From assembly GCF_000186865.1 (NCBI RefSeq), contig NW_008705588.1, positions 266,489-330,488 of the forward strand: a stretch of DNA of 64,000 nt, given 5' to 3'. The notes under the pieces were generated by a model. The model searched no databases, had not been told where the DNA came from, and saw nothing but the letters and a program-made list of their open reading frames with translations. Source of the stretch: Aureococcus anophagefferens. Its lineage: Eukaryota > Sar > Pelagophyceae > Pelagomonadales > Pelagomonadaceae. Every line of letters begins with the position of its first letter. Position 1 is the stretch's first letter. Below are positions 13,634-55,781 of the stretch, one piece after another. The position numbers were made by a program, and so were the translations under genes.

Positions 13634-16600
13634 TTAGCTCCTGATGGTCGCGAGGTTGCCCTGGCGGGACCGGCCGACGCGGCCCGATTTGTCGGTGGCG
13701 CGCCCTTGTCCGGGGCCCGATTGTCCGGGGCCGACGCGGGTCGTGGCGCCGACGGGGCGCGATTGTCCGGGGCCGACGCGGGTCGTGGCGCCGACGGGGC
13801 GCCCTTGTCTGACGCGGGTCGTGGCGCCGACGGGGCGCGATTGTCCGCCGGAGGCGACGCGGATCGTGGCGCCGACGGCGAATTTTCCGACGTTGTTGGA
13901 GACGGTCTTCGGCGTCGACGAGCGCTGGCCCATGCGGCCGCCGGAGCCCGGCGGCGTGCGCGCGGAGCCGTACGCGCCGGGCGGCGTGCGCACGGTGCCC
14001 GCGGGCGAGGTGCCCCGGGGCGTCCCGCCGGGCGAGCCCGAGAGGCCCCGGCTCGTCGCCCCGGGCGAGCCGAAGGCGCCGCGGCCCGTCGCCGCGGCCC
14101 GGGGCGACGGCGCCGCGCCGCGGCTCGACGGGCCGCGGGGCGACGGCGCCGCGCCGCGGCTCGACGGGCCGCGGGGCGACCCCGGCGCCGCGGGCCGCTT
14201 CTCGCTCGCGTTGCCCCGGGCCTTCATCTGGTTCGAGTTGGGCCGCGAGCCGGGCCGCGGCGCGCCTCGGACGGGCGTCGTCGCGCGGCTCGCGGCCGGC
14301 GACTGCTTGCGGCTGTTGGGCGTCTGCGCGCGCGACCCGGCGCGCGACTCCGACGGCGACGGCCGGTTCGAGCCCGACGCGACGGGCGTCGTCTCGATCA
14401 TGCGCCGCAAACCCCGCGTGAGCGTGCCCATGCCCGCGCGGCCCAGGTGGTCCGCCTCGGAGAACGTGCCCCGGTGCAGGTTCGGGATCGCCGCGTGCAC
14501 CGAGTCGCGGTGCGCGGGCTCCTCGGGCGCTTTGCGCGCGGACGCCTTGGCGGGCCGCGGCGGCCTCGTCTCCGGCGCGCCGCCGCGCGAGCCCGGCCGC
14601 GAGCCCGGGCGGCTCGACGGCGCCGTCGACGGCGCGCCGTCGTCGGCCGCGGGCGCGGGCGCCGCGGCCTCGAGCTCCCGCGCGGTGACGTAGTCCTCCA
14701 TGCGGCGGCCGGAGACCTTGGGCTTGCGCACGGGCGCGACGGCGTGGAGCAGGGACGGGGGCCGCTTCGCCGGCGCGGGCTTGTCCGGCGGCGCCGCGGC
14801 CGGGTTCATCTTCGCGCCGAGGAGGTTCGCCATCGGATTCAGCGACGCGAGGACGTCCTCCATGCGCCGCGCCTTTGGCGCCTCCGCCGACGTCGGCGTC
14901 TCCGACGACGGCGGCCGCGTCGCCGCCTCCCCGGCGGGCGGCGTCGCCGTCCGCGGGCGCGACGACGGCGGCCGCGACGGGCCCGGCGACGGCGACGGCG
15001 TCGGCGACGGCCTCGGGTCCGGCGCGGGCGCGTCCGCGGGCGGCGTCGCGCCGTCCCAGGAGTCGGGCACGCCCCCGGCCGCCGCGGAGAAGCGCAGCTC
15101 CTTCTTGCCCGCGGCCGTGATCTCCACGGTCATGACGACGTTCGACAGCGGCGCCTCCGCGGACTCCATGAACCCCGCGGCCGCGCCCTCGGCCTCCAAT
15201 CGCGCCGCGGCCTCGGCCGCGTCGAGCTCCTCGTCCAGCGCGAAGAGCTCGCTCAGGTCCTCCATGGCGTAGGGGTGGTAGGAAAAGCGGTGCTCCCGCC
15301 GCTTCTGCTCCAGCAGCGCCTCGCGCTGCTCCTCGGTCCGCCCGACATGGATTGGGGGCTCGTCGGACGAGTGGTCCACGTCGCCGCGCGCGACGCGGCC
15401 CTGTGTGCGGTGCGACGCGAGCTTGCCGCCCGCGCCGCCCACGCCCTCGCCGGGGACGACGAGGCAGAAGACGTCGAGGCCGAACCATTGGTTGTCCGCG
15501 AGCCACGCGTCGACGGGGCCGACGACGGGCAGGTGACCCGCGAGCTTCGCCGCGGCCGTGTTCCGCAGCGCGTAGCAGTGCATGCCCAGCGTGTACTCCG
15601 GCCGGAAACAGCAGTTGCCCGTGCCCTCGGCGTAGCGCCGCTGGCCGTAGTCGTGGAAGCCGAGGTAGACGACGTCACACCGCGCGTGCCAGAGCCGCGG
15701 CCAGAGCCTGGGCAGGAAAAGGGTGATTCAACGTCGCTTCAACGTGAGTGTTTCGCGCGCGCGCGTTCCGGAAAAAGCGTCTACGCTTCGAGACCGTTCC
15801 GAGAGATGATCGCTCGTCCAAAAGTCAGCCAAAACGAGTGGAAAACGGCCGAGATATGAGCCTTTGAAGTTGGGAATTTCGCTCTCTTTTGCTGCCCTGG
15901 CCAGAGCCTCGCGATCTGGAACGCGAAGCGCGGGTGGAGCTTCACGTCGTCCTCGCAGATGAGGTGCCAGGAGTCCTTGGTGCCCCGCGGAGCGATGCGG
16001 CGCCAGATGGACGCGTGGCTCAGAGCGCAGCCCTGCTCGCCGAACGACGCGAAGCGGCAGCCGGGCTCGACGGACGGCTCGCGGTCCGCCAAATTCGACG
16101 CGTCCCAGAGCGGCTCGAACATGCCGTTGAGGAAGGACCCGCCCCGGTGGAGCTGGAAGCCGTCGAAGGCCTCGACGACGTCGACGGCGACGCCGTCGCC
16201 GAGCGCCTTCGGCGCGTCCTCGAGGAAGGCCTCGAGGCGGTCCGTGCGCCGCTTGAGATTGATGAGGCTCACGCCCGACGTGAATAAAGTCGTCGCGTCC
16301 CAGGGCACCTTCTCGCGCGGCGCCGCGCCCTGGGGCGCCGCGCCCTTGGGCGCCGCGCCCTTGGGCGTCGGCCGCGGGCCCCGCGCCGGCTTCCGCCGCG
16401 GCGGCCGCGGCGGCGCGGGCCTGTCCGCGAAGTCCGCCGCCGCGGCGTCGAAGGTCAGCACCGACGGCCGCTCGCTGATCATCAGCGACGTCCGCTCCGT
16501 GCAGGCGCTGAAGCGCGACGGCGACAGGCTCTCGGCCAGGCTCTTCTGCGGCAGCGCGAAGGGCTCCGGCTCGGGCTCCGGCTCGGGCTCCGGCGGCTCG

Positions 16601-53965: not shown

Positions 53966-55781
53966 ATGTACGCGCCCGTGCAAGCCGTGGACGAAGCTGC
54001 CGCTGGCGAGGAGCCGTGGCAGGCAGCGGACGAGGCTGCCGAGGAGCCCTGCGTCGACGCGCGCGCCCTCGAGGCCGCCAAGGCCGACGAGAGCCTCGCG
54101 GGCGCGCTCGACGGCGAAGCCGCGTTGCCATCGGTCGGCCGCCGCTGGCTCCGCTTCGCCGTCGTCGCGGCGTCGTCCTTCCTGCTGAACGCGACGAGCA
54201 GCGTCATCATCATCGTCATGCCGAAGATCGCCGAGGACCTCGACGCGTCGCTGTCGTCCGTGCTCTGGGTGAGCCTCGCGCACAGCCTCGTGACCTGCGC
54301 GCTCAACTCCGGCGCGGGCCTCCTCGGCGACGTCGTCGGCCACCGGCGGCTCTGGTACGCGGGCATGGCCGTGCGCGCGGCCGCGCAGCTCTGCAGCGGC
54401 CTCGCGCCGTCGCTGCCGGCGCTGGTCGCGTGCCGCGCGGCCGCGGGCGTCGGCGGCGCCATGGACGGGCCCTCGGGCATCGCGCTCGTGCTGCGCACGT
54501 TCCCGCCGGAGCGGAAGCCGTTCCTGGTCGCGCTGTGCACGGCCGTGGGCACGTCGGCGCAGTCCGCGGGCATGATCCTCGGGGCCGTCGTCGCCTGTGT
54601 GGAAATCAAATATTCAACCCGACTTCAATGTGCGCGTAATCGAACGGATTGGACCAGACTATTTCGCTGTGCTTCGAGAACTCGACGAGAGCAATCGATT
54701 CGTCCAAAAATCAGCCGAATCGACTTCGATTTGACCGAGCTAGAGATTTCTGAAGTTTGGCCCCGACGTCCCAGCTCACTGGTTGATTTCCACACAGGTC
54801 GTCGCGCAGAGGTTCGGGTGGCGCATGTGCTTCCTCGCGCCCGTGCCCCTGCTGGCCGTCATCGTGCTCGCCGCGCCCGTCGCGCTGAGGGACGACGACG
54901 GCGGCGGCGGCGGCGGGGGCGACGTCTCCGGGCAACTGCGGGACTTCGACTGGGGCGGCACGGCGCTGCTCGCCGCCGCTTTGATCCTGTACCTCCTCGC
55001 GATCAACGCGCACGCCGGCGCCGCGCGCCTGGTCTTCTTCGGCGCGTCCGCGGCCGCGGCCGTCGCGCTCTTCGCGCTGGAGCGGCGCGTCGAGGCCGCG
55101 GGCGGCAAGCCCGTGCTCGCGCTGTCCGTGCTCGCGCGGGGGCCGCTCTGCGCGGCCTTGCTCGCGCACTTCTTGCTCTGGTCGTGCTACATGATGGCCT
55201 ACCTCCTCTACCCTTTATTCCTCCAGGAGCGCCGCGGGTTCTCGCCGGCGCGGGCCGCGTCGCGGCTCTGGCCGCGGCCCCTCGCGAACGCGCTCTTCTC
55301 CACGCTCGCCGGGCGCGTCGGCGGCCGGTCCACCGCGACCTTCGTGTCCGTCGGCGCGGCGCTGCAGTACCCGTCGTTCGTCGCCGTCGTCTTCTGGCTT
55401 CGCCTGCGACGGCTCTCGTCGGACCTGCTGCTCGGCGCCATCCAGGTATTCCAGGGCGCGGGCAACGGCATCGCGTCCAACACGCTCATCGTCTTCGTCA
55501 CCGCAGCCATGCCCGGCGACCGCATCGGCAACGCGCTGGGTATCGTGAAGACGGCGCAGAGCGTCGCGCTCATGACGGGCTACTCGAGCACGACGGCCAT
55601 CGTCGACGGCGGCGGCGCGGAGAGCTACGCGACGGCCGCCTACGCGGCGCTGGCCGTCGCGACGGCCTTCCTCTTCTTCCCGTGCTACGCCTCGGGCTAC
55701 GAGGCGGGCCGAAGAGCGGCCGCCGCGGAGACGGAGGACGCGCCCGTCGAGAGTCCCCTCGTCGCCGCCGCCGCTAAGTGA
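53966..55781 (+). CDS. Major facilitator (DHA2-like) transporter, one introner intron
   Basis: Exons 53966-54586 and 54798-55781 give 534 residues. Hydrophilic head of ~60 residues, then about 12-14 TM helices: FAVVAASSFLLNATSSVIII, LWVSLAHSLVTCALNSGAGL, LGDVVGHRRLWYAGMAV (MFS loop 2-3 signature), AAGVGGAMDGPSGIALV. After splicing comes GAVVAQRFGWRMCFLAPVPL, typical motif-C and TM6 region. The last helices include ALIAFLFFPCYASGY-like segments. It likely exports small molecules by proton antiport; substrate unknown. Ends 14 bp from the convergent PDZ gene. Confidence 0.85.
54595..54797. mobile_element. Introner (203 bp) in MFS transporter gene, perfect TIRs
   Basis: Ends are exact 15-bp inverted repeats: ctgtgtggaaatcaa (54595-54609) and ttgatttccacacag (54783-54797). 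The 8-bp target duplication gtcgtcgc lies at 54587-54594 and 54798-54805. Splicing from GT at 54587 to AG at 54796-54797 removes 211 nt and restores the frame. The element is AT-rich against its GC-rich exons and codes for nothing, so it is a non-autonomous transposon acting as an intron. Confidence 0.93.

Follow-up and report, generated by a model that had tools for sequence, protein, structure and literature searches.

The locus described here raises the question of whether an intron can be traced to the insertion of a transposon and, if so, which of its splice sites the transposon brought with it. It lies in a 64,000-nucleotide stretch of Aureococcus anophagefferens DNA, here called the window (C28:266489-330488). 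The original prediction placed a 203-bp element with exact 15-bp TIRs between two copies of GTCGTCGC inside an MFS gene, and direct reading of the sequence bears out both the structure and its coordinates (Table 1). The element's outer ends, CTGTGTGGAAATCAA and TTGATTTCCACACAG, are reverse complements of each other without mismatch along all 15 bp.

Table 1 Features of the window discussed in the text.
Feature	Position	Strand	Remarks
Second introner, family 2	15708..15899	-	192 bp; 93.75% identity over 192 bp to a family-2 copy; predicted donor GC
Upstream MFS exon	53966..54586	+	207 codons, ends at a codon boundary (phase 0); PF07690 profile 2-142
Left copy of 8-bp target duplication, GTCGTCGC	54587..54594	+	first GT is the predicted splice donor
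Introner	54595..54797	+	203 bp, non-autonomous TIR element, GC 48% (0.48); sequence read directly
Left TIR, CTGTGTGGAAATCAA	54595..54609	+	read directly, counted genome-wide
Right TIR, on the + strand TTGATTTCCACACAG	54783..54797	-	last AG (54796-54797) is the predicted splice acceptor
Right copy of target duplication, GTCGTCGC	54798..54805	+	opens the downstream exon
Downstream MFS exon	54798..55781	+	in frame to the stop codon; PF07690 profile 143-344

The feature is an introner, a kind of non-autonomous transposon previously described from Aureococcus and already known. In the work of Huff, Zilberman and Roy (Nature, 2016), A. anophagefferens introners were reportedly short non-autonomous DNA transposons that create introns, each of which is said to carry one splice site and to co-opt the other from the duplicated target. 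The window introner would share this architecture, with one site carried and one co-opted. That introners of such a kind are known in Aureococcus, as had been claimed, also agrees with passages of Gozashti et al. 2022 (PMC9860276), which describe introner families with rare GC donors, at 0-50% of a family.

At this locus, a short non-autonomous DNA element would have entered an exon and duplicated 8 bp of the target. The spliceosome would then use the GT contributed by the target (54587) as its donor and the AG that closes the element as its acceptor, and removal of 211 nt would give back the original coding sequence. Since the element would supply an acceptor in either orientation, the target must supply only a GT or GC (GY), and insertions that lack GY on the sense strand would presumably be lost by selection. 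The mobilising transposase would act in trans. The sequence evidence set out below makes it almost certain that the introner is such a short cut-and-paste-type element, inserted in an exon with an 8-bp target duplication, a target-derived donor and a TIR acceptor.

The target duplication by itself is weak evidence, because GTCGTCGC is frequent in this GC-rich window, where the word alone occurs 70 times on both strands. A search of the entire window for TIRs bounded by exact 8-bp direct repeats returned 4 places, of which the one at 54587-54805 matches at 15 of 15 TIR bases and the other three, all GC-rich, at 13, 10 and 8 of 15. Control scans of five block-shuffled windows gave 1-3 such places each.

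The host gene, which encodes an MFS transporter, spans 53966-55781 on the + strand. The MFS_1 profile is contiguous across the insertion site, and the joined protein scores 119.8 bits, compared with 70 and 41.3 bits for the two pieces. The open reading frame that runs through the retained element departs from the MFS frame after it. Two distant paralogues in the same genome (32% identity) align across the site in one piece, over query residues 53-221 and 134-244. Orthologues were sought among 5.8 billion proteins, with the 8000 best candidates scored, and those candidates included three ENA proteins of 524-526 aa (86-96% identical, full coverage) and a fourth, P0004, an A. anophagefferens protein that is 94% identical over half of the query and apparently belongs to a fused gene model. 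In all four (P0001-P0004) the peptide GA(V/L)VAQRFGW is uninterrupted at the site and contains neither an insert nor additional residues, which would be compatible with removal of the element by splicing, P0004 being a gene model that may already assume the intron. In P0001 and P0003, Leu replaces the first Val of this peptide; by the genetic code, these alleles therefore cannot have GT at the donor position. The longest contigs behind the three ENA orthologues measure 3.3-6.2 kb and may be DNA or assembled RNA, in which latter case they show splicing rather than an empty site. DNA, in which case they would be empty sites, is made likely by one contig that extends 6.2 kb around a 1.6-kb open reading frame.

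A mobile element is best judged by its other copies, and a genome search for the TIR had been proposed to count them. In the 49.05 Mb of the genome (86 contigs), the exact 15-bp TIR occurs 774 times (394 + 380) and the reversed control sequence 0 times, which argues that the element is not a product of chance. A DNA search with the whole element yielded 1746 first-look candidates, of which the 40 that were scored are 91-100% identical to it, the 100% match being the window element itself. An introner of the DNA-transposon type is expected to occur in one genome as numerous near-identical copies at unrelated sites, as it does here. On contig C1, 57 exact TIRs form 15 pairs, and a two-end recapture estimate from these figures gives roughly 750 copies genome-wide (~735-756), a lower figure because copies with both ends mutated are missed. 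A 745-bp TIR-to-TIR stretch on C1, considered as a candidate autonomous copy, consists of two separate introners.

The copies also share their target duplication. Among the 30 best copies, both ends could be found by TIR match (at most 3 mismatches) in 29; the thirtieth, L010, had ends outside this limit. At those 29 copies the duplication is a perfect 8 bp in 27, with 1 mismatch in one and 2 in another. A larger set of 88 distinct full copies was taken from fetched loci (BLAST, E up to 1e-10), leaving aside 16 partial alignments and copies too near the end of a locus. There the duplication matches at 8 of 8 positions in 73 copies, 7 of 8 in 11, 6 of 8 in 3 and 2 of 8 in 1, although in this set the duplication itself was used in part to adjust the ends within 4 bp, which favours high matches, unlike in the 30-copy set. 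By either measure (27 of 29 TIR-defined and 73 of 88 duplication-refined copies), TIRs occur together with a target duplication of fixed length, as in introners. Three copies (L015, L023 and L024) have the same base change in both of their TIRs, reading CTGTGTGCAAATCAA at each end. L002 and L005, which might be taken for same-site insertions in opposite orientations, belong to a segmental duplication of 3.2 kb shared by C5 and C4 (98.4%), in which an introner was copied along (202 of 203 bases equal), and this rules out two separate insertions.

The window holds a second introner, of a related family 2, at 15708-15899. It is flanked by a perfect duplication, GCCAGAGC, at 15700-15707 and 15900-15907, and sits in a minus-strand gene whose frame continues across the element. 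Similarity to glycosyltransferase family 25 (PF01755, 34.6 bits, cut-off 24) is confined to the upstream exon piece, the downstream piece having no match. Family-2 elements have the ends CTGGGCAG.../CAGGGC(A/G)G... and can be aligned to parts of the family-1 interior. The fetched loci yielded 11 family-2 copies, with ends chosen partly by the duplication; this is a perfect 8 bp in 9 of them and matches at 7 of 8 positions in the other 2. On the strand with the ..CCCAG acceptor, the donor would be GC in 6, GT in 4 and GA in 1, the last being L022, whose ends are doubtful.

Which transposase mobilises these elements was asked by searching for an autonomous partner. Exact TIRs followed by non-introner bases occur at 44 places (12 + 25 + 7), but all of these align to the introner and are diverged introners rather than autonomous copies. 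Among these 44 places no autonomous partner with an exact TIR and a transposase was found, and for TIRs with the usual next bases the search covered the 100 of 774 places that were listed. Genome searches with one domain model each gave no match for MULE (PF10551) or Merlin (PF12762), for which positive controls matched, and none for hAT (PF05699) or KDZ (PF18758), where the controls did not respond either and the negative therefore says little about these two groups. In viral contigs the introner 5' pattern gave 0 matches, and the 1 match to a 20-base core pattern lies in a contig with 39% GC and, by look, phage-like open reading frames; this contig has no longer introner match and was judged a chance hit rather than a viral carrier. 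A search of the literature from 2023 on found no work that brings together introners, an autonomous transposase and horizontal transfer.

The search did return one mobiliser candidate. P-type transposons make 8-bp duplications, the same length as at the introner, and P-type transposase sequences are present in this genome. A catalytic-domain search detected one relic, on C25, and with a piece of this relic as query an open frame of 563 aa was recovered on each of C2 and C11 (29% identity). The C11 frame contains three P-type domains in order (22.5, 18.2 and 14.4 bits, each below the Pfam cut-off). Probes of 50 bp agree between the C2 and C11 copies at four places inside the element and disagree at two outside it, which gives the position of its ends. 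The C2 copy occupies C2:3446601-3451872 (5.3 kb, pieces L085-L092) and has perfect 56-bp inverted repeats. The C11 copy (L084:131-5340) has two convergent open frames, lacks the right end and differs from the C2 copy in its flanks. The C25 relic (L083:1-1131, C25:178000-179130) is broken in frame only by TAG (7 TAG, no TAA or TGA); directly after it comes introner-like sequence, with N on its other side. Searched against PDB sequences, the C25 piece gave no match at E up to 1.

That this P-type element, in its C2 and C11 copies, mobilises the introner is improbable, even with the shared duplication length and the introner-like sequence beside the relic in its favour. The inverted repeats of the C2 copy start CAAGGGGATCTTCAAG, unlike CTGTGTGGAAATCAA, so that the introner does not have the TIRs expected of a MITE of the P-type transposon found here. 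At the C2 copy no target duplication is visible (flanks AGCCGCGG and AGATCCCC), and no family-1 introner TIR with at most 4 mismatches occurs in 5.7 kb at the C11 copy. Because its TIR is not the introner TIR, and with the sequence evidence speaking against it, the P-type element is not named here as the mobiliser.

If the target provides the splice donor, the duplication is expected to begin with GY on the sense strand of the host gene. The sense strand was called from codon usage in ~420 bases of flank with the element removed and one 8-base copy kept inside the stretch; the GY rule itself was not used. For the 73 perfect duplications, the sense strand begins with GT or GC in 72 (GT 31, GC 41) and the antisense strand in 22 of 73, against a one-strand GY background of 0.208 in the flanks. 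These 72 of 73 copies have the GT/GC...AG sense-strand borders seen for introners in exons. The sole exception on the called strand is the second copy in L030, whose strand margin of 20.2 is among the lowest. With a codon model from four window gene pieces only, which dropped 2 of the 73 copies for too little flank, the result is 70 of 71 sense and 22 of 71 antisense. The 5' copy also begins with GY in every one of the 14 insertions whose duplication matches at 6 or 7 of 8 bases (4 GT, 10 GC). Another group of 14 copies lies in loci that were fetched on other grounds; of these, 13 carry GY and 13 a perfect duplication.

A transposase should not know which strand of a gene is the sense strand, and this polarity therefore points to selection for splicing at the GY taken from the target. 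Some target preference of the transposase may be added to it and is not fully separable from splicing selection: sites in weakly coding flanks keep GY on the called strand (7 of 7), no copy lacks GY on both strands (0 of 73), and there is a purine excess at +7 of the duplication (52 of 73, base composition p = 0.0003) that mirrors the Y at +2. The antisense share (22 of 73) is also somewhat above the 0.208 background.

The same polarity bears on a second reading of the locus, in which both splice sites lie inside the element. The donor would then be the GTGG in the left TIR (CTGT/GTGG, element position 5), and 12 nt would be added to the message, 8 from the duplication and 4 from the element, keeping the frame and adding four residues. 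An Aureococcus sp. introner family of this kind has been published; according to the legend of Fig. 2F in Gozashti et al. (PMC9860276), the example carries both splice sites and adds 12 nt, whereas the family studied here most likely restores the message exactly. A donor inside the TIR sets no demand on the target, yet nearly every sense-strand duplication starts with GY, and we regard this reading as very unlikely. Judged from sequence, the most likely arrangement is a donor co-opted from target DNA and an acceptor supplied by the TIR. The original prediction of a target-derived GT, a TIR-derived AG and an exactly restored reading frame is thus supported by the sense-strand GY rule, the MFS_1 profile and the four orthologues.

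Both ends of the element give an outgoing CAG, so that an acceptor is available in either orientation. Insertion in both orientations is expected if both ends carry an acceptor, and 41 copies are plus and 32 minus relative to the gene. The acceptor in the 88 copies is CACAG in 74, CGCAG in 13 and CTCAG in 1.

It is also conceivable that the element is never spliced, and that a transposon or repeat has simply disrupted the MFS gene and left a pseudogene. A retained insert would indeed throw the gene out of frame, but the frame of the downstream exon is intact to the stop codon and MFS similarity is kept. Across the family, coding-like flanks are present at 75 of 86 sites, against a proportion of 0.58 for stretches drawn at random from the window and 0.52 for those drawn from the loci, the latter value being lowered by the introners that these stretches contain. 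Together with the polar use of GY, this is unexpected from disruption, and the pseudogene reading is highly improbable. The least probable explanation, that the intron arose as a copy made through RNA, by reverse splicing or otherwise, as has been suggested for introner-like elements of fungi, would fit the excess of copies in coding-like sequence, but the 8-bp duplications, the TIRs and the occurrence in both gene orientations are marks of a DNA transposon, and reverse splicing would be expected to insert in the sense orientation only and to make no 8-bp duplications.

The original prediction also took the perfect TIRs as a sign of recent insertion. The TIRs are perfect, as it said, but so are those of 35 of the 88 fetched copies, including 7 of the 43 that are below 86% identity to the window copy (a share biased upward, since many loci were fetched by exact TIR), and youth is not proven by them. 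Against the consensus of the 88 copies the window copy shows 94.1% identity, and the closest of the other copies are 97.5% identical to it. The uninterrupted orthologues are better evidence for recency than the perfect TIRs. Pairing of the two TIRs as a conserved RNA stem was considered and rejected: among the 14 copies from loci fetched on other grounds, both TIRs diverge from the consensus by 0.17 and the mean identity to the window copy is 84%, with no sign of extra conservation.

The usual donor consensus is GTRAGT, and the introner donors look nothing like it. Across the 73 copies with perfect duplications, the strong signals are G at +1 and Y at +2 (p below 1e-19). Of the other twelve positions tested (-6 to -1 and +3 to +8), ten show no difference from flank composition at p = 0.05; the two that deviate are -2, where T occurs in 19 of 73 copies (p = 0.001), and +7 (p = 0.0003). 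GC is the commoner donor, found at 51 of the 86 GY among 87 copies with at least 6 of 8 duplication bases matching. Intron phases, scored for the 83 of 88 copies that passed filters, are 42 phase 0, 21 phase 1 and 20 phase 2, and these counts show no clear difference from the GY supply in the same exons (p = 0.13).

What merits following up here is the donor pattern. A 2011 survey (PMC3033335) found 39.6% GC-AG introns in A. anophagefferens, exceptional among 61 species. Its passages call the origin of this excess 'an enigma', report that the U1 5' end is normal and that the information deficit exceeds that of every other species examined, and offer as explanations a high genomic G+C, U1 base modification or U1 proteins. 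Like the GC-AG introns of that survey, the introner donors are largely GC and have little further consensus. Its passages name no transposon; on the present reading, GC-rich targets would contribute to the excess by lending GC donors to the introners. The GC-rich donor use of the introners fits the 39.6% figure, and insertions of this kind may have added such introns. More speculatively, and on balance we doubt it, the 5' splice site of introner introns may be set by the element rather than by donor sequence, any GY 8 nt upstream of the TIR being accepted without a U1-type consensus; insertion into GC-rich exons would then be a main source of the GC-AG excess in Aureococcus.

The low-information, mostly GC donor, the finding that perfect TIRs are no proof of youth and the second introner in the window go beyond the original prediction. 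In the literature, introners are the best-supported source of massive intron gain, and the window locus is a clean, readable example. The family-wide donor count adds a testable link to it: the GC-AG puzzle of Aureococcus may follow from transposons that take their donors out of GC-rich target DNA.
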